The position numbers and the translations under genes are program-made. A stretch of DNA of 64,000 nucleotides from Alcaligenes aquatilis (GTDB lineage Bacteria > Pseudomonadota > Gammaproteobacteria > Burkholderiales > Burkholderiaceae_B), in NCBI RefSeq assembly GCF_003076515.1, contig NZ_CP022390.1, forward strand, positions 558,001 through 622,000, in the 5' to 3' direction. Shown here piece after piece: positions 6,840 to 59,183 of this stretch. Under the pieces are notes generated by a model. It saw only the letters and a list, made by a program, of their open reading frames with translations, made no database searches and was not told the origin of the DNA. The number at the start of each line of letters is the position of its first letter. Positions within the stretch are counted from its first letter, which is position 1.

Positions 6840-8021
6840 ATGAAAAAACAAGTAGCGTTTTGTATGAGCACGCTGGCCTTGGCCCTGGCCTGTAGCCCGG
6901 CGTCCAGTCAGGAAGTATTCAAGGTGGGGCTATTGACCACCTTGTCCGGCCCTGGTGCGGCTATTGGCCAGGAAATCCGTGATGGTTTCGAGCTGGGCCT
7001 GAACCACTCGGGCGGCAAGTTCGGTGGTGTGGATGTGACCTTGGCGGTGCTGGACGATCAGCAAAAACCGATGGAAGGCCGTCAAGCAGTGGACCGTCTG
7101 GTCAAGCGCGACAAGGTCGATGTCATTACCGGCATTGCTTTTTCCAACGTGCTGCTGCCCGTGATGCCCACGATTATGGGCAGCGACACCGTCTATATTT
7201 CCGCCAACACGGGCCCGGCTGAGTATGCGGGTGAGCATTGCAACCCCAATTTCTTCAGCGTGTCCTGGCAGAACGAGGATATCCCTGCCGCCATGGGCAA
7301 GTACGTGACCGATCAGGCGCACAAGAAAGTCTATTTGATCGCCCCCAATTATCCCGGTGGACGTGAGTCCATTGAAGGCTTCAAGCGTCTGTTCAAGGGA
7401 GAGATTGCCGACGAGGTTTATGTGAAGGTTGGCCAGATGGATTACGCCGCCGAATTGGCCCAGATGCGGGCTTCGGGTGCGGATGCGGTGTTTTTCTTCC
7501 TGCCCGGCGGTATGGGCGTGTCTTTTATCAAGCAGTTGATCAACTCGGGTCTGTCTACGCAGATGGCCGTATATACCCCTGGTTTCTCGGCTGACCAGGA
7601 CACGATTGGTGCTATTGGCGAGTCCATGAAGGGCATGGCCAACGCCGCCCAATGGTCGCCGGATTTGGATAACCCCGCCAACAAGCGTTTTGTGGCGGAG
7701 TTTGAAAAGACCTACGGTCGCCTGCCGTCCATGTATGCCTCCCAGGGCTATGACGCTGCTTTGTTGCTGGATGGCGCATTGAAGTCTGATCCCAAGGCCG
7801 CCACCGACCGCGAGGCCTTGCGCAAAGCCTTGCGCAGCGCACCGTTCGAGTCCGTGCGCGGGGCTTTTGCCTTTAACAACAACCAGTATCCGGTGCAGAC
7901 CTACTACATGCGCGAAGTGGCCCCGAATGACAAGGGTCAGATGAGCAACAAGATTGTGTCCACCGTATTCGAGCAGTTCCAGGATCATTTTGCACCGCAG
8001 TGCAAGATGGAAAAGTCATAA
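6840..8021 (+). CDS. periplasmic ABC-type substrate-binding protein (Peripla_BP_6, branched-chain amino acid type)
   Basis: 393 residues from the ATG after GGACGGAGAC. A signal peptide (MKKQVAFCMSTLALALACSPASSQ) is followed by EVFKVGLLTTLSGPGAAIGQ, the usual opening of LivJ-like ligand-binding proteins; PGGRESIEGFKRLFKG and YASQGYDAALLLDGAL follow the family pattern. Members bind amino acids, aromatic acids and related compounds in the periplasm. No permease or ATPase gene is adjacent, so it either works with a transporter encoded elsewhere or delivers ligand information. It is the first gene of the catabolic operon and probably binds the operon's substrate. Confidence 0.9.
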   Translation: MKKQVAFCMSTLALALACSPASSQEVFKVGLLTTLSGPGAAIGQEIRDGFELGLNHSGGKFGGVDVTLAVLDDQQKPMEGRQAVDRLVKRDKVDVITGIAFSNVLLPVMPTIMGSDTVYISANTGPAEYAGEHCNPNFFSVSWQNEDIPAAMGKYVTDQAHKKVYLIAPNYPGGRESIEGFKRLFKGEIADEVYVKVGQMDYAAELAQMRASGADAVFFFLPGGMGVSFIKQLINSGLSTQMAVYTPGFSADQDTIGAIGESMKGMANAAQWSPDLDNPANKRFVAEFEKTYGRLPSMYASQGYDAALLLDGALKSDPKAATDREALRKALRSAPFESVRGAFAFNNNQYPVQTYYMREVAPNDKGQMSNKIVSTVFEQFQDHFAPQCKMEKS

Positions 8022-8059
8022 AGAGGGTGCGTCAAGCATCCGGCAGCAAGGAGGTAATG

Positions 8060-9451
8060 ATGAGCTATAGCAACGAACAGTTGTCCGCATTGGTGCGGGG
8101 AGACAGCGTACATAAATCGGTCTATACCGACCCTGAAATCTTCCGTCTGGAGATGGAACGCATTTATGGCCGTGCCTGGATCTACATCGGCCACGACAGC
8201 CAGGTACCTAAGCCGGGCGACTACCACACTACCTTGTTGGGTGGTCAGGACGTCATCATGGTGCGCGGCAGCGACAAGAAGGTGTACGTGCTGTACAACC
8301 GTTGTCCACATAAGGGCGCGAAAGTGGTGGCCGATGGCTGTGGCAATGCCGGCAAGTTCTTCCGCTGCCCTTACCACGCCTGGACCTTCAAGCTGGACGG
8401 CCAGCATCTGGCCGCGCCCATGAAAAACGGCCTGGAAAACACCTGCTTTGATCCTAAGCACCCGGACTTCTCCATGCGCCGTGTGGCTCGTGTGGAAAGC
8501 TATCGTGGCTTTGTGTTCGCCTGTCAAAGCGCCCACGGCCCGGATCTGAAAGAGTTTTTAGGCCCCATCATCACCTCCATCGACAATCTGTGCGATCGCT
8601 CGCCTGTGGGTGAAGTGGAAGTGGCCGGTGGCAGCTTCAAGGTCTGGCAGCCTTCCAACTGGAAAGTGTTTTACGAAAACCTGCACGACACCATGCACGC
8701 GAATGTCACGCATGAGTCGTCCTACGTGGCTGCCCGCGAACAGGCCGAGGATTACGGTTCCATGCCGTTGGAACTGCATATCATGGACGGAAATGGTGAG
8801 CCTTACGGTTTCTGGGAAAAGCTGGATCTGTACGCGTTTGATAATGGCCACGGCTACATGGAAGGCATTTTCAATCCAGGGGCCATCGAAACCGACCCGG
8901 TCACCAAGGCGCACTACGAAACCCTGAAAGAAGCCTATGGTGAAGAAAAAGCCCTGAACATTCTGGGCGAGAACCGTCATAACAGCATTATTTACGGCAG
9001 TGGCTCGCCACACACTGTGTTCCAGCAGTTCCGTGTGATTCGTCCGGTAGCGGTGGACCGCACCCACGTGGAGATCCAGTTGTTCCGCCTGAAAGGCGCT
9101 CCGGACGATATCTATAAGCGTGGCCTGATGTACGCCAATCTGATCAACTCGCCCTCGTCCAATGTGATGCCGGACGATATCGAAGTCTATGGCCGTTGCC
9201 AGGAAGGCAATAAGACCCATGGCGGCGAATGGATCAGCATGCACCGCTACGACGGCACCGATAAGCCTATCGAAGGCGGCATGGTGGCCACCAACGGCAC
9301 CAGTGAATTGCCCATGCGCAACCAGTTCCGCGCCTGGAAACACTTCATGACCACCACTATTTATGATGCGCCTGCGCAGTCGCAAGACAGTGGTAAAGCC
9401 ACCGTGCGCTCGGCCTCTGGTGAGCCTATTGCCCCCGCAACACAGGCTTAA
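8060..9451 (+). CDS. aromatic-ring-hydroxylating dioxygenase, Rieske alpha subunit
   Basis: 463 residues from the second of two adjacent ATGs, correctly spaced from AAGGAGGT. The Rieske centre is CPHKGAKV near residue 80 (Cys-X-His) and CPYHAW (Cys-X2-His) about 20 residues later. The mononuclear iron ligands lie in ENLHDTMHANVTHESS near residue 215, with the Asp bridge in NLHD. Length and layout match BenA/AntA-like alpha subunits that insert both O2 atoms into an aromatic ring. The beta subunit follows at once, but no ferredoxin or reductase gene is in the cluster. The substrate is not identifiable from sequence. Confidence 0.92.
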   Translation: MSYSNEQLSALVRGDSVHKSVYTDPEIFRLEMERIYGRAWIYIGHDSQVPKPGDYHTTLLGGQDVIMVRGSDKKVYVLYNRCPHKGAKVVADGCGNAGKFFRCPYHAWTFKLDGQHLAAPMKNGLENTCFDPKHPDFSMRRVARVESYRGFVFACQSAHGPDLKEFLGPIITSIDNLCDRSPVGEVEVAGGSFKVWQPSNWKVFYENLHDTMHANVTHESSYVAAREQAEDYGSMPLELHIMDGNGEPYGFWEKLDLYAFDNGHGYMEGIFNPGAIETDPVTKAHYETLKEAYGEEKALNILGENRHNSIIYGSGSPHTVFQQFRVIRPVAVDRTHVEIQLFRLKGAPDDIYKRGLMYANLINSPSSNVMPDDIEVYGRCQEGNKTHGGEWISMHRYDGTDKPIEGGMVATNGTSELPMRNQFRAWKHFMTTTIYDAPAQSQDSGKATVRSASGEPIAPATQA

Positions 9452-9483
9452 GCGGGCTGCTGTCCGAGCCAAGGAGAATTCTT

Positions 9484-10020
9484 ATGTTGTTTGATATTGA
9501 TTTTGACGTCAGCGTGGATCAGGTCACGCCTGTGAATCTGAGTCTGGAAGCCATTCGCGAAGTAGAGCAGTTCATCTATCACGAAGCTCGTCTACTGGAC
9601 GAACGTCGCTGGCAAGCATGGCTGGATCTGTGGACCGAGGAAGGCATGTACTGGATTCCTCACAGCTACGATCAGGAAAGCCCGTACGAGCACATTTCCC
9701 TATGCTGGGAAAACAAGCTGCTGCGTGAACTGCGTATTCGTCGTCTGGAGAACCACCGCAATTGGTCCCAGCAGCCGATTACCCAGTCCTGCCGCGTGCT
9801 GGGCAATCTGATGATCGACGGCACCGATCCGGAAGGTTACCTGGTGGTGCGCTCCAGTTTTCACTCCATGGAGTGGCGCGGTAAAGATCCGGTCTACCGT
9901 GTGGGTAGTCTGATTCACAAGCTGCAAGCCCAGGAAGGCGGTGGCTGGAAACTGCGCATGAAGCAGGTGAATCTGGTGGATCGTGACGCGGTTCACGGCG
10001 CCATTCAGGTATACATCTAA
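9484..10020 (+). CDS. aromatic-ring-hydroxylating dioxygenase, beta subunit
   Basis: 178 residues, preceded by AAGGAG. The SnoaL/NTF2-like beta-subunit fold is supported by EVEQFIYHEARLLDERRWQAWLDLWTEEGMYWIP near the start and SFHSMEWRGKDPVYRVGSLIHKL later. Beta subunits are structural partners in the alpha3-beta3 oxygenase. It begins 33 bases after the alpha gene, and its stop overlaps the next ATG by one base (TAATG), so translation of the operon appears coupled. Confidence 0.92.
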   Translation: MLFDIDFDVSVDQVTPVNLSLEAIREVEQFIYHEARLLDERRWQAWLDLWTEEGMYWIPHSYDQESPYEHISLCWENKLLRELRIRRLENHRNWSQQPITQSCRVLGNLMIDGTDPEGYLVVRSSFHSMEWRGKDPVYRVGSLIHKLQAQEGGGWKLRMKQVNLVDRDAVHGAIQVYI

Positions 10021-10628
10021 TGTCGGCAGCCCATCACACCGCCTTGCTGGCCCTGCATTATCAGAACGACGTCCTGCACGCTGATGGTCTGATCCGTGTG
10101 GGGGTAGAGGCCAACAGCCCCCAGCGTCAGGCTCTGATCGAGGCCGCAGGCCGTTTGCTGGCGCAGGCCCGCGCACAGGGCGTGCCTATTGTGCATGTGC
10201 GGGTGGGCTATCGGCCTGACTATGCCGATCTGCTGTGCAATGCACCGATTCTGCACAATGTGAAACGCATCGGGGCCATGCAGACCGGCAGTTGGGGAGC
10301 CCAGTTCTTTGACGGGCTGGCTCCCTTGCCCAACGAGTTTGAAGTCCATCACACGCGCATCAACGCTTTCTTTGGCTCCGCGTTGGAGCCGGTGGTGCGT
10401 CGTCTGGGGGTGGAGCGTCTGGTGATTGCCGGTGTGGCCACCCATTCCGTGGTGGAAAGCACGGTGCGCCATGCAGTAGACATGGGCTATGAGGTGGCGG
10501 TGGTGGCCAGCGCCTGTGGCGCTCCACCAGCTACGCATGAAGCCTCGCTGGCCAGCATGAGTCTGATTGCTCAAATTGATCGGGATGAAGATTGGGCAGC
10601 CGTCTTTGGCGCGCCACAAGCACAGTAG
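10020..10628 (+). CDS. isochorismatase-fold (cysteine hydrolase-like) protein with altered catalytic residues
   Basis: 202 residues. The fold is recognisable from ALLALHYQNDVLH (first catalytic Asp region), VPIVHVRVGYRP and VIAGVATHSVVESTVRHA. In cysteine hydrolases the last motif reads GVATNxCVE; here the Cys position is Val. The usual Lys before the SAFxGT motif aligns with His in VHHTRINAFFGS. EntB/PhzD-type isochorismatases also lack the Cys, but they keep the Lys. The enzyme may hydrolyse a vinyl ether or amide in the pathway, or may be inactive. It is translationally coupled to the beta subunit. Confidence 0.82.
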   Translation: MSAAHHTALLALHYQNDVLHADGLIRVGVEANSPQRQALIEAAGRLLAQARAQGVPIVHVRVGYRPDYADLLCNAPILHNVKRIGAMQTGSWGAQFFDGLAPLPNEFEVHHTRINAFFGSALEPVVRRLGVERLVIAGVATHSVVESTVRHAVDMGYEVAVVASACGAPPATHEASLASMSLIAQIDRDEDWAAVFGAPQAQ

Positions 10629-39855: not shown

Positions 39856-40176
39856 TTATTTGCGTTGATAGCGCTTGCTACCTGTGCTGGTTTCGCAATA
39901 GCGGCCCCCACGCGGGCCCGTGCAATAGGTGCCACTGACACATGTGCAAGCGCTGTTTGACTGCAGCGTTTGTGGAGCCGATGGCGAACTTCGTCCTGTT
40001 GTACCGGTGTACGTGGGGCAAGATCGTTTACTGCCGCTGGCAGAACCATCACGGCATACAAAAACCTCCCCCTCGCAATGGGAGATACCGCCTTTTTTGC
40101 CTGAACAGGGGGTATTTCGTGCCTGTGTATCGAGAGGTAGCAGTGCCATGATCAGGCACAGGAACAAGCATTTCAT
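39856..40176 (-). CDS. secreted cysteine-rich small protein
   Basis: 106 residues with a cleavable signal (MKCLFLCLIMALLPLDTQA). The mature chain holds CSGKKGGISHCEGEVFVCRDGS and CTCVSGTYCTGPRGGRYC; eight cysteines follow the signal and probably form disulfides in the periplasm. I know this as a conserved hypothetical pattern but not its function. It converges with the 39675 lipoprotein gene and is 119 bases from the next lipoprotein start. Confidence 0.65.
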   Translation of the reverse strand: MKCLFLCLIMALLPLDTQARNTPCSGKKGGISHCEGEVFVCRDGSASGSKRSCPTYTGTTGRSSPSAPQTLQSNSACTCVSGTYCTGPRGGRYCETSTGSKRYQRK

Positions 40177-40295: not shown

Positions 40296-40562
40296 ATGCG
40301 AATCGTAATGCTTTTCCCCGCTTTATTACTAGCCGCTTGTCAAACGATGGCGCCCACCGAGGCAGTTGGCAGCCAAGCATGGTTGGAACAGGTGGATCGC
40401 CAATTGGCTGTGTCAGATGGCCAAGGCCATGGTCCCGATTATGGCTCGCAGGAGTGGTGCAACGTGGTCCATTTTCGTTTGTACGGGAAAGCTTCTGTAG
40501 AGCCCGTACCTTGCGACCAGGCCTGGATGGAGAAGGTCGATCAGGAAATGAAAAAGCGTTAG
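40296..40562 (+). CDS. small lipoprotein, unknown function
   Basis: 88 residues from MRIVMLFPALLLAACQ, with the lipobox LAAC. The mature part has an internal echo: QAWLEQVDRQL near the start and QAWMEKVDQEM at the end, suggesting two related short helices. It includes CNVVHFRLYGKASVEPVPC, a likely disulfide. The ribosome site is weak. It is the last chromosomal gene before the phage-derived island. Confidence 0.6.
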   Translation: MRIVMLFPALLLAACQTMAPTEAVGSQAWLEQVDRQLAVSDGQGHGPDYGSQEWCNVVHFRLYGKASVEPVPCDQAWMEKVDQEMKKR

Positions 40563-45190: not shown

Positions 45191-45205
45191 TTTTTGGAGC
45201 CACCG

Positions 45206-46564
45206 ATGGCAAAACTATCTCGGATCGCCAACGTAGATATTGCGTTGCGTACGACCGCAATCAATGAACAATCTTTTTCCGACATGCTGATTCTGGGCAG
45301 TCATGTGCTCTCGACAGCACGCGCCATGACCATTACCGGTGCGGATGAACTGCTGGACATGGGACTGCAAGATACGGATCCCTTGTACTGGGCTGCGCGC
45401 GATGCTTTCGCACAGATTCCTGCCGTTCGTCAGGTCTTTATTGGCCGTCGTCAGGTTGACGAGCTCAAAGTTTCGGTAAGTCGTGCTGTGCCTGATGCCA
45501 ACTACCGTGTCCAGTTGCGCTGGCGTGACGAACAGGGTCAACAGCTGGATGCGCAGGTGTCGTACAAGGCGCTGGAAACAGACACGGTGGCAGAAATTGC
45601 CTCGGGTTTGGCTAGCGCGATTGCACAAACGGCTGCTCCTGTGACGGCGACTGCAGCCGAAGCTGTGGTGACTGTGAGCAATAAAACGGTGGGTGCGGCC
45701 CTGGCGGTTCAACTGCAAGGCAATCTGGCCATGCAGGTGGTGCCCGGTACTGAGACTGTGACCCAAGCTCTGTCCTCGATCGCCAATAGCCCCTTTAATT
45801 GGTATGGCCTGGTTATTACCAGCCGTGCCAAAGAAGATGTGCTGTCGGCTGCCGCCTGGACTGAAGCCAACGAGAAACTGTTTGGTACGGCTTCGGCTGA
45901 TGCGGGCATTATTGATCCCGATTCGAGCGAGGATTTGGCTAGCCAGTTGCAGGCAAAACAGTACTTCCGCAGCTTTGGCATTTACAGCGCAGCAGCCGCA
46001 ACGCAGTACCCTGAAGCCGCGTTGATGTCCTCCATGTTTACTTACTACCCCGGTCAGGAAACCTGGGCACTGAAGAAGCTGGCAGGTATTGCCTACGACG
46101 AACTGAGTGAAGGCCAGGCTTTGGTGGCACATGGCAAGAACTTCTCCACCTTTGAGCCATTCCGCAACTTTGCAGTTACCCAAGGTGGTTTGACGGCCGC
46201 GGGAGAATGGATTGACGTTATCCGCTTGCGTGATGCCTTGGTCGAACAGATCAAAGTGTCGGTGGTCTCGGCCATGATCAATGCAGATGGCAAAGTCGCC
46301 TTCACTGACGATGGTATCCAGATGATCGGCAATGCCATCCGTGCTCCTTTGGATCTGAACGTGCGTCGTGGTGGTATTGCGACTGAAGAGCTGGACGAGA
46401 ACGATCGTATTGTTCCCAGCTACACCCTGAGCCTGCCACGCAGCAGCCAGGTTCCTTTCAACGACAAGGCGAATCGTGTCTTGCGCGACGTGTACTTCAC
46501 TGCTCGCCTGGCTGGCGCCATTCACGTGTCCGAAATCAAGGGCAGCTTGAGCTACGCCCTGTAA
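45206..46564 (+). CDS. contractile tail sheath protein (DUF3383)
   Basis: 452 residues from the ATG six bases after GGAG. The sequence follows DUF3383, the sheath family of several myoviruses and tailocins: N-terminal MAKLSRIANVDIALRTTAINEQ and SDMLILGS, the LFGTASADAGIIDPDSSEDLASQLQ region, TYYPGQETWALKKLAGI and the conserved C-terminal VFFTARLAGAIH-like end (VYFTARLAGAIHVSEIKGSLSY). Contraction drives the tube through the target envelope. It is the largest structural gene after the fibre and tape measure. Confidence 0.85.
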   Translation: MAKLSRIANVDIALRTTAINEQSFSDMLILGSHVLSTARAMTITGADELLDMGLQDTDPLYWAARDAFAQIPAVRQVFIGRRQVDELKVSVSRAVPDANYRVQLRWRDEQGQQLDAQVSYKALETDTVAEIASGLASAIAQTAAPVTATAAEAVVTVSNKTVGAALAVQLQGNLAMQVVPGTETVTQALSSIANSPFNWYGLVITSRAKEDVLSAAAWTEANEKLFGTASADAGIIDPDSSEDLASQLQAKQYFRSFGIYSAAAATQYPEAALMSSMFTYYPGQETWALKKLAGIAYDELSEGQALVAHGKNFSTFEPFRNFAVTQGGLTAAGEWIDVIRLRDALVEQIKVSVVSAMINADGKVAFTDDGIQMIGNAIRAPLDLNVRRGGIATEELDENDRIVPSYTLSLPRSSQVPFNDKANRVLRDVYFTARLAGAIHVSEIKGSLSYAL

Positions 46565-54676: not shown

Positions 54677-56275
54677 ATGGCAGTAGTGAATTTTTATTCT
54701 GGCTTCGAATACAAATGGGGCCAAACTGGCGGTGTGATTGATCTGCAAGATGATCAGTACAAACTGGGCTGGGCCTTTATCGGTTCGACCCCGCCTTCTG
54801 TGGAGCAGTTCAACAAACTGCAGCAACTGAATGATGAAAAGTTTGCCTGGTTGTGGGGGCAGTTCAAGTCGGCTGCCAGTGCGCGCAAGGTCACGCTTGG
54901 TGCCAATGACCTGCTGGGGCTGAACAAGTTGTTGACGGCAGCGACGCCCGATGCGAGTGCGACGGTCAAGGGCATGACGGCCTACGCCAGTGATGCGGAA
55001 GCCGCTGCCCGGACGGTCAAGACCAAGGCCCTGACTCCTTATGGTCTGGGTCTGAACCTGCAGTCCTCGGCCCGGGATACCACCGCCGGCAAAATCCTGA
55101 CAGTGGGTGCATTTGGCTTGGGAAGGGCCGGTGCAGATACGACGATTGATGCCTGGCCAGCGGAAAACCTGAGCACGCTGGACGTGGGGGCTGGCATGTA
55201 TTACGTGCCAAATGCACAAGGAGCCGCCAGCAATTTACCCGCCGGTGTGACTAATCAAGGGGTGGTATTCCACCGTCAGTCAGGTTCCGGTGGCGGTCAG
55301 CTCTATGCCTCTTTTGATGGTGAGCTTGCTTGGCGTGGCCGTCGATCCGGTGAGTACACCGCGTGGAACCGGGCGTTGGCTGTGGGTGACTATGGCTTGG
55401 GTGCGGGTACCGTTAATCCGGCTAATGGCCGGGATAGTGTCAATCCATTTGGCTGGTACTACCAGAACCGTACTACGACCTGGGGTGGAGGCTCGTTCTT
55501 TTTGGATATGCCGTATGGCACGGCACTGAATGCTGGTTTGCGCCTTTCTACCGATCCTTACACTGATAATTTTTATTTGAACGGTGGTGTGTCGGGCAAG
55601 AAGGAGTATCGGGCCGCCTGCAAAATCTGGCACAACAAGAACTTTGATCCCGATACGAAGGCCGACAAATCGACCTCGATCCCCACATTTGCCACTGCAC
55701 CAAAGACCAACCAAGGTCCGGTGATTTACGTGATCGATCGCCAACAGCTCTTGCAATGGCAGACTATCGGTTCGTTTACAGGCTATGCCAGCCTGAACGT
55801 CGGTCGTTTTGTCTGGGGGACGTCGAAGAATGCCCGCGTGGATGAAGTTGATGCAATTGGGCAGGTCGTTGCTCCAACCAATACACGCTTTGTTGCCCTG
55901 GTGGCCTGGGCGGAGGCAAACGGCCACGTCGTCGCTCCAGGGGACTGGAAGAAGGGGGCATTTGTGTTTTCGAAAGTCTCTGCAGGCAGTTTCCGCCTGC
56001 CTGATTTGCGTGATCAATTCATCCGCGCAACCGGAACTGACGCTGACACTGCAAATGCGAGGTTGATAGGTACCAAGCAAGTTGAAGGCTTTAAAACACA
56101 CACACACCTGGCACCGACCCCTGAGGGAAATACCGGTGCCCGATATTTCATTTATGGTTCGGCCGTGGACTCTTATGACTATGAGGAGCCTGGTGGCACA
56201 CTACCTACCACTTCTACGGGAGGAGCAGAAACACGACCTATTAATCTCGCCCTGCACCCACGTATTCAAATTTGA
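54677..56275 (+). CDS. tail fibre protein with switchable C-terminal tip
   Basis: 532 residues, ATG after GAGGTG. The N-terminal part (FEYKWGQTGGVIDLQDDQYKLGWAFIG) would attach to the wedge. A long Gly-rich beta region follows. Near the end is the phage-collar-like sequence FRLPDLRDQFIRATGTDADTANARLIGT, followed by the tip (KQVEGFKTHTHLAPT ... ETRPINLALHPRIQI). The crossover sequence at 56048-56070 encodes TANARLIG, just before the tip. The last 75 residues are therefore a replaceable cassette. The 26-base palindrome at 56258-56283 contains its stop codon. Confidence 0.85.
   Translation: MAVVNFYSGFEYKWGQTGGVIDLQDDQYKLGWAFIGSTPPSVEQFNKLQQLNDEKFAWLWGQFKSAASARKVTLGANDLLGLNKLLTAATPDASATVKGMTAYASDAEAAARTVKTKALTPYGLGLNLQSSARDTTAGKILTVGAFGLGRAGADTTIDAWPAENLSTLDVGAGMYYVPNAQGAASNLPAGVTNQGVVFHRQSGSGGGQLYASFDGELAWRGRRSGEYTAWNRALAVGDYGLGAGTVNPANGRDSVNPFGWYYQNRTTTWGGGSFFLDMPYGTALNAGLRLSTDPYTDNFYLNGGVSGKKEYRAACKIWHNKNFDPDTKADKSTSIPTFATAPKTNQGPVIYVIDRQQLLQWQTIGSFTGYASLNVGRFVWGTSKNARVDEVDAIGQVVAPTNTRFVALVAWAEANGHVVAPGDWKKGAFVFSKVSAGSFRLPDLRDQFIRATGTDADTANARLIGTKQVEGFKTHTHLAPTPEGNTGARYFIYGSAVDSYDYEEPGGTLPTTSTGGAETRPINLALHPRIQI
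56048..56070 (+). repeat. crossover site 1 (in fibre gene), shufflon-like
   Basis: Begins ACTGCAAATGCGAGGTT and continues GATAGG. Codons read Thr-Ala-Asn-Ala-Arg-Leu-Ile-Gly. The first 17 bases recur exactly, inverted, at 57312-57328; over 23 bases the two copies differ at one position. All other copies keep the codon phase, so exchange preserves the frame. Confidence 0.8.
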
Positions 56276-56283
56276 ATACGTGG
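56258..56283. repeat. perfect 26-base palindrome at convergent fibre ends
   Basis: The arm CCACGTATTCAAA is followed at once by its exact complement. Read on the plus strand it encodes PRIQI-stop of the expressed fibre; read on the minus strand it encodes PRIQI-stop of the facing cassette. It can fold as a hairpin and could end both transcripts. Confidence 0.85.
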
Positions 56284-56520
56284 ATATAGCGCCGTATTAA
56301 TTGAGCGGGTTTCAGATCCATTACCTGTGTGAACAACACCGTAAATAATCCCAGGATCTGCTGAGTCGGCTAAACCAATCGACGCGCTAATCCCAGTCGC
56401 GCCAAGCTTTGCTCGGTCTAACGTATGGATATTCCCTCCCGACTTCAAACCATAGACATCATGTTTCTCCCAGCGAACAGCCTCTATTTGAAGAGTCCCT
56501 AATGGCCTCGCATTTGCAGC
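56266..56520 (-). pseudogene. silent alternative fibre-tip cassette C2
   Basis: On the minus strand, site 2 (GCTGCAAATGCGAGG) is followed by an open frame of 84 codons: ANARPLGTLQIEAVRWEKHD near the start and GNGSETRSINTALYPRIQI at the end. It has no promoter or ribosome site of its own and begins exactly at the crossover sequence, so it is a storage cassette that would become expressed after inversion, not a separate gene. Confidence 0.75.
56498..56520 (-). repeat. crossover site 2
   Basis: Reads GCTGCAAATGCGAGGCCAT then TAGG on the minus strand, inverted relative to site 1. It shares the 14-base core CTGCAAATGCGAGG. It lies back to back with site 3, 14 bases away. Confidence 0.75.
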
Positions 56521-56534
56521 GAAGTGGCCACCCA

Positions 56535-56557
56535 ACTGCAAATGTGAGAGGTTTGGG
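56535..56557 (+). repeat. crossover site 3 (diverged)
   Basis: ACTGCAAATG is identical to site 1, then TGAGAGGTTTGGG. The codon phase is conserved (TANVRGLG). More diverged than sites 2 and 5, so recombination here may be weaker. Confidence 0.6.
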
Positions 56558-56759
56558 TAATGCGCAACCTGCAGCCACAAAAATGCTCCCGATTCAGACT
56601 TGGGCATCAAGTAGCTTTGACGTGACAGGCGCATCTATTTCTTTAGTGGGGGCTGATACAGGCGGCTCTCTGGGGCCTTTATCCGCAGCAATGGTCCCAA
56701 ATCAGGGCTCCGAAACGCGACCGCAAAATACGGCTCTCCACCCGCGCATTCAAATCTGA
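56535..56759 (+). pseudogene. silent alternative fibre-tip cassette C3
   Basis: Site 3 (ACTGCAAATGTGAGAGG) opens an uninterrupted frame of 74 codons: TANVRGLGNAQPAATK near the start, SFDVTGASISLVGADTGG, and the end GSETRPQNTALHPRIQI. No start signals. It is in the same orientation as the expressed fibre, so it can be joined only after a prior inversion of a segment containing it. Confidence 0.72.
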
Positions 56760-56765
56760 ATTCGT
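56742..56765. repeat. imperfect palindrome at the end of cassette C3
   Basis: CCGCGCATTCA and TGAATTCGTGG around AATC pair with one mismatch and one G-T. The minus strand still encodes PRIQI-stop here, showing that a facing cassette once met C3 and has been lost. Confidence 0.6.
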
Positions 56766-56767
56766 GG

Positions 56768-57077
56768 TAGCAAAGTTAAAGCCATTAGGCACTGAAAACT
56801 CGACGGTGCTTTACTTATTCGATGAGGGCTGAGAGGGTTAGCTTCTGTGCAAATAGACACAGCTCAACCCTGAGTCGGTGTTGTCGGATCTTTAGTTGCC
56901 GACTCATCAGATGGACTGTTCAGAGTCTCTAGTCATGCGACACATTATGCGCAGGAGGCAATTCCTGGTGCTGGGTATTTTTTAAGTCGTGTAGATTTTG
57001 ATAGTTCTCGTGTAGTGCGTACGTCGGGTGTGAGTCGTCCGATCAGCACCGCACTTTATCCGCGCCTTCAGATCTGA
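56768..57077 (+). pseudogene. decayed fibre-tip cassette C4
   Basis: A degenerate site 4 (56768-56789, sharing GCAAA and GCCATTAGG with site 2) leads into PLGTENSTVLYLFDEG and then a stop. A second open stretch from 56874 in the terminal frame reads VGVVGSLVADSSDGLF ... VDFDSSRVVRTSGVSRPI and ends STALYPRLQI. Stops separate the two parts, so this cassette can no longer give a full tip. Its end resembles cassette C5. Confidence 0.65.
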
Positions 57078-57087
57078 AGGCGCGGAT
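57058..57087. repeat. perfect 30-base palindrome at convergent cassette ends
   Basis: The 15-base arm ATCCGCGCCTTCAGA is followed by its exact complement. Both strands encode PRLQI-stop, for cassettes C4 (plus) and C5 (minus). It is the same arrangement as at 56258 with a different sequence. Confidence 0.85.
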
Positions 57088-57328
57088 GCAATGAGGTATT
57101 TAAAGGACGGGTTTCTAAGCTCGACCGAACCACCCGTTTGGAGTCAAAAGAAACTGTGGATGAGAACCCTGCACCAGTCATACGGTAGGAGTTTTCTACA
57201 GGGTCTCGCTTCTCTAGAAAGACCCCCGTAGAGGGGACGCCCCCGATCATCTCAGCGAATCTCATTGAGCCTACTATTCGTTCTACTGCGTCATTCTGGC
57301 CGCTGCCTAGCAACCTCGCATTTGCAGT
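57068..57328 (-). pseudogene. silent alternative fibre-tip cassette C5
   Basis: On the minus strand, site 5 is followed by 86 open codons: TANARLLGSGQNDAVERIVG, a middle GGVPSTGVFLEKRDPVENSY and the end ETRPLNTSLHPRLQI. A stop lies just upstream of the site, so it has no independent start. It faces the expressed fibre and has the best-matching crossover site, so a single inversion of 1.25 kb would install it in frame. Confidence 0.78.
57306..57328 (-). repeat. crossover site 5
   Basis: On the minus strand it reads ACTGCAAATGCGAGGTT then GCTAGG, differing from site 1 at one of 23 bases and in opposite orientation. It marks the outer end of the invertible region. Confidence 0.8.
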
Positions 57329-57382
57329 CCCATAGTCACTTTTTTAATTTTTCAAGCCACCACGATGTGGTCAGGAGTTTTT

Positions 57383-58078
57383 ATGACTTATTTTCAAACT
57401 GATGCTCATGGCCTGTTTTGCGGCCAGACCCCTTATCAAGAGAAAGGATTTGGTGATGTCGTCGTTGCGCCGCCCAGCACTATTCCTGCCGGTAAGGTAG
57501 CACGTTGGGTGTCTCGCCTGGAAACGCTGGATATTCAGTACGGGGATGCAAATACTGGAGAGTGGCAACTGGTGGAGGACAATCGCCAAGCTACGCTTTA
57601 TACCCCGGATGGTCCTTATACTCTCGGCGAATCCTACCTTGGCCAGACTTATGATGGCCTGGGAGTCTTGCCCCCTTGGCTGAGTGTCGAGTCTGGTCCT
57701 GAGGTGGAGCCAAGCCTGGAGCAGTTGCGTGAACAGCAGTTGGCCCTTGTGAACGCGGGTTTTGAGAGTGCCGTGTCTGAGTTGACTGCCGGTTATCCTG
57801 CAACTGAGCGCTTGACCTGGCCTGTACAGCAGGCAGAGGCCCTGGCATGGTCCAAAGACTCATCGATAGCAACGCCGTATCTGGATGGCATTGCGACTGC
57901 CCGTGGCATTTCGTTGGACGAAATGCGTGAAAAGACCTTGACACAAGTGCGGTCGTTTCTGGAGTTGACCCAGCATCTCATTGGTGTGCGTCAGGGCTTG
58001 CGTGATCAGATTGATGCTGCTGTTTCCGAGGAGGCTGTCAAAGCCATTGTTTGGCCGGTATCAGGCGCTCAGGCGTAA
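57383..58078 (+). CDS. tail fibre assembly/chaperone-like protein (DUF4376-like C terminus)
   Basis: 231 residues from MTYFQTDAHGLFCGQTPYQ; AGGA is seven bases upstream. The last 110 residues (LTWPVQQAEALAWSKDSSIATPYLDGIATARGISLDEMREKTL) follow the DUF4376 pattern common in phage genes behind fibre genes. It probably helps fold or trimerise the fibre. Because it lies outside the cassettes, one chaperone would serve every tip version. It overlaps the recombinase 3' end by 18 bases, convergently. Confidence 0.75.
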   Translation: MTYFQTDAHGLFCGQTPYQEKGFGDVVVAPPSTIPAGKVARWVSRLETLDIQYGDANTGEWQLVEDNRQATLYTPDGPYTLGESYLGQTYDGLGVLPPWLSVESGPEVEPSLEQLREQQLALVNAGFESAVSELTAGYPATERLTWPVQQAEALAWSKDSSIATPYLDGIATARGISLDEMREKTLTQVRSFLELTQHLIGVRQGLRDQIDAAVSEEAVKAIVWPVSGAQA

Positions 58079-59071
58079 GTGGTCAGCCTGGGCGCGGCCC
58101 AGTTTGCTGCGCATCAGTTTTTGAGCCAAGTCCCGCCCGCGAGGATGAAAGTAGCGTTGCAACATCCGGGTATCTCTATGCCCGGTCACTTTGGCAAGCT
58201 CGTGGGCGGGGAAGACATCAGCTAACCGAGAAGTAGCTTCATGGCGTAAGTCGTGAAACCGCAAATCCAGAAAGTAGGCTCGTACAGGACGCCGGTTGTA
58301 GCCACGGCACAAGGCTTCGTAGGCTTTACGTGCGCGCAGGCGGGCGCGCGCGAAAGCTCGGCTGATAGATCCGGGAGTGACATCAAAAATGCGGCCACGC
58401 AGTGATTTGCCCACTAGCCATTTGCGCAGTGCGTCGCGGGCGAACGGTGTTAAAGGCACATAACGGGTGTCCCCATTCTTGGTGTCTTGCAAGGTAATGA
58501 CCCCATGGGTCAGATCAATTTGCTCGCGCGTCAGATTCACGATTTCCGAGCGACGCATGCCTGTTTCCACCGCCAAGCTGACCACAGTGGGCAGACAACT
58601 GGAGCGGGTGTGTTTCAGGATCCACTCGAACTCGGAGCGTGGGCATTCCTCAGCGCTGACGCCATACAGACGAATCTGATTAAAAAGTCGACGGTCGCGT
58701 GCATCGTTGACAGCGGGGCGTCGAATTAGCTGAACCGGGTTAGCCAACCAGCTATAGCCCCAATCTTTACGGGCGACGGTATATAGATGGGATAGCAGGG
58801 CCATCCGTCGATTGACGGTAGCGGGAGCGCGATCTTGCATCCATTCGTCGCGTACGCGTTGCAAGTCTTGCGGGGTAATCCGCGCTAGGTTCCGGTTTGC
58901 CAACAGGGTGCTATTCCAGGCCCGGGTTAGTGAACGCTCCTGGTAGGCCGATTTTTTTAGTGTAGACACCTCACTCAGGTATCGCTCCAAGGCCTCTGCC
59001 AATGAAGGGCAGGTTCGGGAAAGGCGGCGCTGACGGGTGGCATTCATAAGTAAATCTGTCTTGTAGGCCAT
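58061..59071 (-). CDS. Rci-like shufflon tyrosine recombinase
   Basis: About 336 residues from MAYKTDLL; starts at 59164 (GTG) and 59047 are also possible and none has a clear ribosome site. The core NPVQLIRRPAVNDARDRRL and the helical N-terminal domain resemble R64 Rci (NPVELVRKPKVSSGRDRRL, from memory). Catalytic residues are present: Arg in ETGMRRSEI, Lys in DTKNGDTRY, His-X2-Arg in FHDLRHEA, His in TGHRDT and Tyr in LQRYFHP. Its position beside the tip cassettes, not at an island edge, supports inversion rather than integration. Confidence 0.83.
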   Translation of the reverse strand: MAYKTDLLMNATRQRRLSRTCPSLAEALERYLSEVSTLKKSAYQERSLTRAWNSTLLANRNLARITPQDLQRVRDEWMQDRAPATVNRRMALLSHLYTVARKDWGYSWLANPVQLIRRPAVNDARDRRLFNQIRLYGVSAEECPRSEFEWILKHTRSSCLPTVVSLAVETGMRRSEIVNLTREQIDLTHGVITLQDTKNGDTRYVPLTPFARDALRKWLVGKSLRGRIFDVTPGSISRAFARARLRARKAYEALCRGYNRRPVRAYFLDLRFHDLRHEATSRLADVFPAHELAKVTGHRDTRMLQRYFHPRGRDLAQKLMRSKLGRAQADHLRLSA

Positions 59072-59183
59072 ATAGCAGGTCGCTTCAACTGTGATTTTTA
59101 ACAGCCCATGTTTCTGTGGAGCGTTTATTCGGCGTTTTTGCGGGTTCCCTAGTTTGGTGATCACGCTTATTTAAGGAAAAAAA

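Follow-up and report, generated by a model that had tools for sequence, protein, structure and literature searches.

A tyrosine recombinase shufflon in Alcaligenes aquatilis that probably switches receptor-binding tips on an R-type tailocin

Why does a tail-fibre gene of Alcaligenes aquatilis adjoin a recombinase gene and a row of alternative fibre C-termini? The gene belongs to an island (positions 40562 to 60791 of the window, the whole 64,000-nucleotide stretch that was analyzed) that is missing from the related genome G003. The island, at about 40.6-60.8 kb, combines a contractile tail with regulation and lysis, and a PHROGs scan recognized sheath (45194-46564, forward strand; phrog_205, E 5e-101), chaperone, tape measure, hub, wedge and endolysin genes. 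Terminase, portal and major capsid proteins were found neither among 20 scanned proteins (19 from the island and one from just left of it, small ORFs and an Rz-like gene being excluded) nor in the scan of the fibre, companion and recombinase proteins. PHROGs places phrog_280, phrog_349 and phrog_587 in its 'head and packaging' category as structural proteins, yet they occur here at tail-gene positions. Judged by its gene content, with a contractile tail and lysis genes and no head or packaging genes found, the island is an R-type tailocin. We propose that a site-specific multiple-inversion system, or shufflon, very probably switches the receptor-binding tip of this tailocin, as the initial annotation had largely correctly read the locus; switching would take place in the strain itself and affect killing.

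The fibre gene in its present state is an ORF (54677-56275, forward strand) that consists of a constant part up to recombination site 1 and a 75-residue tip, tip 1. Its product matches the tail fiber family phrog_1858 (E 6e-12). A structural model covers the 200 C-terminal residues: block pLDDT is 85-96 for its residues 1-110, the site starts at residue 126 and the middle of the tip is of low confidence (block pLDDT 39-60). A sequence search of the PDB with the fibre gave no match, and an alignment of the tips gave one match to PDB sequences, a short tail fibre chain (E 7e-5). Foldseek returned no PDB entry below E 0.001, with a T4 short-fibre domain at only E 2.3, and returned tail fibres from a viral library (best E 6e-10). 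Downstream of tip 1 lie stored tip 2 (56266-56520, reverse strand; 84 residues, with no need of its own start codon), stored tip 3 (56535-56759, forward; 74 residues), a dead fifth cassette whose frame is interrupted and that has no intact site (56832-57077, forward) and stored tip 5 (57068-57328, reverse; 86 residues). Tips 2 and 3 end in PRIQI and tip 5 in PRLQI. All four intact cassettes have an open frame in the codon phase that fits the fibre gene and end in PRIQI or PRLQI, as originally described. Tip 3 has 74% identity with an internal cassette in the array of the orthologous tailocin G009, and the dead cassette shares 52% identity over 81 residues with cassettes of L017 and L020. The companion gene, a constant member of the module, lies between the array and the recombinase gene (57365-58078, forward); its product is weakly tail-fibre-like, with matches to phrog_2618 (unknown, E 2e-26), phrog_1807 (tail fiber, E 0.002) and phrog_105 (tail fiber assembly, E 0.04).

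Each intact cassette is headed by a short site. The sequence ACTGCAAATGCGAGGTT is found at 56048-56064 on the forward strand, recurs inverted at 57312-57328 and has a further inverted copy with three mismatches at 56504-56520; the fourth site of the array, CTGCAAATGTGAGA, starts at 56536 on the forward strand. The repeats of ACTGCAAATGCGAGGTT have a chance expectation of 0.17, and three matches were reached in 0 of 100 shuffles, which bears out the earlier claim that the site in the fibre gene recurs at the other cassettes. The pattern CTGCAAATGYGAGR, derived from the window's own sites, occurs four times in the whole 3.84-Mb genome, always at the array, and its reversed control does not occur in the same genome-wide scan. 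The four intact 14-bp sites alternate in orientation: site 1 within the fibre gene (56049-56062, forward), site 2 (56506-56519, reverse), site 3, the variant CTGCAAATGTGAGA (56536-56549, forward), and site 5 at the distal array end (57314-57327, reverse). Sites 2 and 3 stand head to head across a 16-nt linker (56520-56535). The array has the sites and cassettes of a shufflon, namely several inverted short sites, each with an in-frame alternative fibre C-terminus. On the right side of the sites, positions 10, 12-14, 19, 21 and 22 are conserved, and the left flank is mostly variable apart from the strongly conserved position -9. The conservation of positions 1-9 was not counted because these positions were selected by exact match, nor was the TANAR-like peptide at each site counted separately because it is dictated by the DNA site.

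The recombinase ORF beside the array (58061-59047, reverse strand) encodes a tyrosine recombinase of 328 residues (PF00589, E 1.3e-22), in agreement with the first reading. Its start at 59047 is indicated by the close homologues L016, L018 and L021, and its length leaves little room ahead of the core domain for an arm-binding domain, which Rin-type recombinases lack. As a member of the Phage_integrase family, the protein is not a serine invertase of the Gin, Cin, Min or Ein type. The gene is intact, and comparison with its G009 orthologue (dN 0.082, dS 1.58, dN/dS about 0.05) indicates purifying selection. This selection, together with four intact sites and four intact tips, argues against a former shufflon that is locked in this strain and switches only in relatives. 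The locked state is improbable, though one of the five cassettes is dead and lacks an intact site, and L015, the only second record of the strain's region, is identical throughout and has the same arrangement; L015 is probably the same genome.

Does the array shuffle among relatives? Across 12 arrays with 78 sites, at least 55 open codons follow the site in the exchange frame in 74 cases; for the other frames, the counts are 23 and 5. Head-to-head linkers are exactly 16 nt long in 22 of 22. Six close arrays (36 sites) contain seven cassette pairs that match by at least 85% over the 60 nt after the site. In six of these seven pairs, at least three of the 7 nt preceding the site differ, and such changes of the left flank allow the crossover position in the site to be inferred. 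The G009 array holds 12 cassettes, with linkers in both orientations (three and two). The orthologue of the window's attached tip is stored there as cassette 9 (72% identity), and a different tip is attached. The relatives thus differ in the order of their cassettes, contrary to the identical order that the initial annotation had named as a refutation. The module is also present in phages, and the recombinase gene recurs together with the companion gene and the fibre part where few or no other island genes match. The pattern scan of genome contigs additionally found a Paracandidimonas array; nine of its other 10 matches were scanned and contained no array, and L049 was left out. The protein scan of genome contigs yielded 29 stretches and no confirmed relative, and the region's DNA matched no phage record. 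Of the 11 viral pattern matches, L027, L028, L033 and L034 are records of L018, L015, L017 and L016 again, and L030 has just one isolated pair.

Draft genomes of the family provide a further view of the arrays. At 9 of 24 loci, a contig ends within 2 kb of the recombinase gene in the direction of the array, and at 1 of 24 it does so in the opposite direction. From rounded contig counts, 0.97 array-side ends are expected, and nine were reached in 0 of 100,000 simulations, in a count where loci sharing one genome are not independent. For seven of the nine cut genomes, a fibre-side site was located on a different contig, which in all seven ends no more than about 110 bp from a site; G018, G028 and G183, which are cut, carry two homologues each, and therefore contig pairing there is inferred. 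The breaks are indirect evidence and could partly reflect repeats. Among loci of at least 55% identity, 13 of 32 lack an inverted CTGCAAATG pair, nine of them being cut by a contig end. Such a pair is missing from 4 of 23 uncut loci, three of which have near-variants (up to two mismatches, no chance baseline) in both orientations and one of which, L158, has a single near-match.

Could the cassettes instead have been reshuffled between relatives through homologous recombination or horizontal transfer? Tail-fibre loci of the Pectobacterium carotovoricin are described as exchanged genus-wide by homologous recombination (PMC13195805), and the module is found with different tails. However, the left flanks switch at the same 9-bp core in six of the seven shared-cassette pairs, the G009 linkers take both orientations inside one array and single-genome assemblies break at the sites, which makes such an exchange very unlikely as a substitute for site-specific inversion. 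Least credible is a decayed prophage that left the recombinase as its integrase, with repeats that are mere coincidence. The best PHROGs match of the recombinase is 'integrase', and it is as similar to the D3-like PAJU2 integrase (38% identity) as to Rci (34-38%). This reading was dropped on the att test and tree, both named beforehand by the initial annotation as possible refutations of the shufflon, and on gene context. The longest direct repeats shared by the edges of the island measure 11 and 9 bp and are at chance level, the 11 array-linked recombinases including this one form one clade (100/100), the tRNA end of the G009 tailocin carries a separate, distant recombinase gene, the fibre part, companion and recombinase recur without most other island genes, and the flanks change at the sites.

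The preferred shufflon model would operate as follows. The recombinase would pair two inverted sites and exchange strands within CTGCAAATG, and the intervening DNA would thereby invert. Inversion between sites 1 and 2 would attach tip 2, inversion between sites 1 and 5 would attach tip 5, and inversion between sites 3 and 5 followed by inversion between sites 1 and 5 would attach tip 3. The particles of each cell would bear one tip, and the population would be a mixture with different targets. Four shufflon segments are reported to allow 384 arrangements (PMC9045228). Our own formula, n! x 2^n, fits this published value and gives 8 arrangements for the window's two segments and 46,080 for the six of G009.

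Systems of this kind are already known from pilV shufflons, the Rin phage shufflon and carotovoricin fibre inversion. The pilV shufflons of R64, R721 and TP114 are described as having convergent C-terminal ORF pairs per segment, the Rci recombinase beside the array and asymmetric sfx sites with a conserved right arm and a variable left arm (PMC9045228). Likewise, the window's array adjoins a tyrosine recombinase and has convergent cassettes, asymmetric sites and head-to-head pairs. Unlike in pilV shufflons, switching concerns a phage-type tail fibre rather than a pilus tip adhesin, and the linker between CTGCAAATG copies is 16 nt, compared with 10 nt between head-to-head copies of the R64-type site TGCCAATCCGG read from R721 and an IncI1 plasmid. 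The expected resemblance of the cores holds in that TGCCAATCCGG and the window core TGCAAATGCGA are identical at 8 of 11 positions (P about 0.001, for a single offset and without correction), which is suggestive only. 'Rci-like' is a fair label for the recombinase, but descent from Rci is unproven: the Rci clade is well supported (100/99), and the backbone that joins it to the array clade has support of 47/66 with long branches flagged. Genes of P. aeruginosa phages are also labelled 'shufflon-specific DNA recombinase'; in one such record, none of the neighbouring genes is annotated as tail fibre. Plasmid homologues exist in P. terrae and P. luteola as well.

In dnaJ2 prophages of Bifidobacterium, of which some form complete particles on induction, the tyrosine invertase of the Rin shufflon is reported to switch the C-termini of receptor-binding proteins through short asymmetric sites (11 bp, TTCCCTAACCC), with the variable genes in tandem (PMC6109161). 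The present locus resembles Rin in having a tyrosine recombinase, short asymmetric sites and the C-termini of a receptor-binding protein as target, and it differs in its contractile tailocin and convergent pairs, a distinction drawn from the description of Rin rather than from its protein sequence. Carotovoricin Ein is a serine invertase with one invertible region. Ein inverts the fibre region of carotovoricin Er and changes its killing range (Nguyen 2001, via PMC13195805 and PMC12090994). Fibre inversion in a tailocin is common to both systems, whereas a tyrosine recombinase and several cassettes are found here. Gin, Cin and Min of Mu, P1 and p15B alter tail fibres by inversion, with multiple inversions by Min (PMC6109161), but they are serine recombinases in phages or a phage plasmid. 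The literature searched contained no tyrosine recombinase shufflon in a tailocin, and the locus unites plasmid-type shuffling with tailocin fibre inversion; to that extent it is a little-described system, as had been suggested, with Rin and carotovoricin as close precedents.

What would such a locus mean for the tailocin and its relatives? If switching is true, one strain would make killing particles of several specificities, and the reading of tailocin spectra from genomes would change, with the assembled tip being one of four (or twelve). We consider it somewhat probable that the array belongs to a widespread, undescribed tyrosine recombinase shufflon family that forms a portable 'tip library' in the bacterial family of the host and is active in ordinary cultures. 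The fibre C-terminal part with its array, companion gene and recombinase gene would have been grafted onto the tails of both head-bearing phages and resident tailocins, and both would therefore draw on one common, reshuffled tip pool; the 12 tips of G009 may exceed those of published shufflons. The locus is a naturally occurring library of tips whose exchange points are defined, and it allows the binding of each tip to be tested, and the presence of the module in both phages and tailocins lets the question of a shared specificity pool be asked.

The tail-fibre gene of the predicted Alcaligenes aquatilis tailocin (54677-56275) carries the site CTGCAAATGCGAGG near its 3' end. Three further intact sites, at 56519 (minus strand), 56536 (plus strand) and 57327 (minus strand), all lie within 1.3 kb after site 1. 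Behind every intact site runs an open frame that keeps the reading phase of the fibre gene, encoding tips of 75, 84, 74 and 86 aa that terminate in PRIQI or PRLQI. The array runs from the fibre through site 1 into the attached tip 1, followed by the inverted tip 2 with its site 2, a 16-nt linker, site 3 with the forward tip 3, a dead cassette and the inverted tip 5 with its site 5; a constant gene and the minus-strand recombinase gene come next. The dead cassette, the fifth, ends at 57077, lacks an intact site and has an interrupted frame. The pattern CTGCAAATGYGAGR, derived from the four window sites themselves, occurs exactly four times in the complete, single-contig 3.84-Mb genome, always in this array, and its reversed control occurs nowhere in the genome. 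The inverted recurrences of the fibre-gene site and the exchange-phase cassettes ending in PR(I/L)QI, both described in the initial annotation, are thus confirmed. Its interpretation, a shufflon acting on the tailocin fibre, is supported by frame, geometry, flank exchange and assembly breaks. These support the reading of the locus as a shufflon on an R-type tailocin that resembles those of Rci, the plasmid pilV recombinase, and Rin, the Bifidobacterium prophage invertase.

Across 12 arrays, at least 55 open codons follow the site in the exchange frame at 74 of 78 sites, the counts for the other two frames being 23 and 5. A wider set holds 143 sites, with 10 dropped for a short frame or a changed residue, and 129 different cassettes. 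All 22 head-to-head linkers measure 16 nt. Cassette order is not fixed across relatives: seven cassette pairs (36 sites, six arrays) are at least 85% identical in the 60 nt that follow the site, and the left flanks differ in six of them; for example, the fibre-attached cassette of locus L017 is the distal cassette of L020 (85%). In G009, a genome with an orthologous tailocin, the two halves of the linker, CTTCG and CTGT, are found in either order within a single array (three and two linkers), the pattern expected from inversion between linkers. The attached tip of the window shares 72% identity with G009 cassette 9, which is internal and stored; G009 attaches a different tip. Tips 3, 2 and 5 correspond to G009 cassettes 3 (74%), 7 (51%) and 8 (41%).

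The site is conserved on its right side at positions 10, 12-14, 19, 21 and 22, and its left flank is mostly variable, with position -9 strongly conserved; coding constraint and relatedness may account for part of this conservation. The available text of PMC9045228 describes the same layout for sfx, the Rci site, with a 7-bp core containing the crossover, a conserved 12-bp right arm and a non-conserved left arm. R721 and IncI1 sites read TGCCAATCCGG, are in some cases head-to-head and are identical to TGCAAATGCGA at 8 of 11 positions. A model of the C-terminal 200 residues of the fibre has high confidence over residues 1-110 (block pLDDT 85-96). The site starts at its residue 126, and confidence is low for most of the tip (blocks at 39-60, the last at 74). 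A profile built from the tips and constant parts picks up one solved short tail fibre (E 7e-5), and five tail-fibre proteins of a viral structure library resemble the model at E 0.001 or better. Given these matches, the swapped part would most likely be the receptor-binding end.

The ORF at 58061-59164 encodes a tyrosine recombinase (PF00589, E 1.3e-22). Its close homologues at loci L016, L018 and L021 begin at the position that corresponds to 59047, giving 328 aa. What we take to be the catalytic residues (R, K, HxxR, H and Y) fall within conserved blocks of the homologue alignment. Divergence from the G009 orthologue (dN 0.082, dS 1.58; 328 codons) indicates strong purifying selection. Of 24 recombinases placed in a tree, the 11 linked to arrays form a single clade (100/100), joined by a Paraburkholderia terrae plasmid protein (96/99). 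Within that tree, the nearest recombinase outside the array clade is that of plasmid pPT65 of this species (L086, 6959-8080; 40% identical). Plasmid Rci proteins form a separate clade (100/99), are 34.5-38.1% identical to the window enzyme and have no supported relation to the array clade, with long branches flagged; the D3-like PAJU2 integrase, at 38%, equals Rci. The initial label "Rci-like" is fair for this tyrosine recombinase beside the array: the enzyme probably works like Rci, of whose family it may be a member.

Homologues at E 1e-60 or better occur in 32 of 268 genomes and 11 of 43 genera of the family, which includes Paracandidimonas (Alcaligenaceae in NCBI). We took all 36 homologue places other than those of G000 and G009. 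An inverted CTGCAAATG pair is present at 19 of the 32 loci with at least 55% identity. In nine of these 32, all without the pair, a contig break within 2 kb truncates the array side; the pair is present in 19 of the 23 uncut loci. The four uncut loci without it are L123, L146 and L151, which all have site near-variants in both orientations, and L158, with one near-match only. The exact pair is found at none of the four loci below 55% identity, among which L154 has ATGCAAATG variants. At L123, L124, L133, L146, L151 and L154, related recombinases lie beside the altered cores CTGCGAATGC, TTGCAAATGC, CTGCTAATGC and ATGCAAATGC, suggesting co-evolution of the enzyme with its site.

Among 24 draft-assembly loci, the array side is cut in nine and the other side in one (expected, 0.97). 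In seven of the nine, one or more sites remain on the cut contig, which ends 9-108 bp past the outermost. The fibre-side site pattern is present in 13 of 16 genomes searched, with no match in G113 or G182. For seven of the nine cut loci, the fibre-side site lies on a different contig, and every one of these seven contigs has a site no more than about 110 bp from its end; in G027, the final base of the pattern is also the last base of contig 13. G018, G028 and G183 have two homologues each, so that contig pairing there is inferred. Mixed orientations in the sequenced cultures would be a simple account of these contig breaks at sites, which are indirect evidence.

PHROGs matches in the island comprise a repressor, O-, P- and RusA-like proteins, tail terminator, chaperone, tape measure, sheath (E 5e-101), hub, wedge proteins, fibre and endolysin. 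The 20 proteins scanned (19 inside the island and one just left of it, leaving aside small ORFs and an Rz-like gene) include no terminase, portal or major capsid; three match phrog_280, 349 and 587, structural-protein families filed under "head and packaging", at tail-gene positions. Genome G003 lacks 40562-60791 and has 165 bp instead. A small phage-type gene (phrog_6000; 39856-40176) lies between tRNA-Met and the island and is present even in G003. An att core at the island edges, raised initially as a sign of an integrase, was sought, and no flanking repeats exceed chance level. G004 (L078, L079) and G007 (L075, L076) retain at this locus the repressor (98 and 96%), the P-like gene (95% in each) and the lysis genes (59-92%), but the tail genes in between differ. 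In G007, lambda-like (F-type) tail genes lie between the repressor/P-like and lysis genes, with no head-family protein among nine scanned in that stretch. Because the flanking genes are kept and the tail genes differ, the locus behaves as a resident tailocin site that seems to swap whole tail types.

The contractile tailocin of G009 matches 16 of 24 window genes (sheath 81%) and lies near a tRNA-Met region that matches the left side of the window; the right flank of the window was not found there. A separate integrase-like gene (L074, 10432-11586) stands at its tRNA end, with no counterpart visible at the equivalent position of the window. The G009 array (L021, G009:C1:2304000-2318500, 7128-10447) consists of six convergent pairs of in-frame cassettes, 12 in all. 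This exceeds the eight variants of TP114, which the available text of PMC9045228 presents as, to the knowledge of its authors, the first shufflon characterised that surpasses seven. Ten further loci (L016, L017, L018, L019, L020, L024, L025, L026, L029 and L031) share the fibre part, companion gene and recombinase; L024 and L031 have identical site lists and are not independent. Other window genes give one short match in these stretches, in L026. Two of the ten records, those of L016 and L031, contain weak sheath matches (E 6e-5 and 1e-5), and the baseplate wedges of L019 and L031 belong to the window's own PHROG (phrog_6), so that the tails of the ten are not all unrelated to that of the window. 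L018 and L016 are head-bearing phages, since their records contain portal and major-head genes and terminase and portal genes, respectively. One shufflon-bearing phage also has a 709-aa ORF without a PHROGs match (L080, 2569-4695), on the strand opposite to neighbouring head and tail genes.

Fibre inversion with altered killing is described for carotovoricin in the available portions of PMC13195805 and PMC12090994. The portion of PMC13280938 at hand reports inversions at Xenorhabdus tailocin loci, with no invertase gene inside them, and cites a case postulated for Pantoea stewartii. An Rci-like integrase is noted in Pf-5 prophage 03, with no array described in the accessible text of PMC2647930, and PMC13423793, as far as its text is accessible, concerns a pilV shufflon. 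A literature search, whose reach left out most subscription papers, found among the papers listed no report of a tyrosine-recombinase shufflon in a tailocin or of a shufflon in Burkholderiales phages. The window shufflon belongs to a module found in both phages and tailocins across the family, and we infer that the strain would switch its fibre tips, with an effect on killing.
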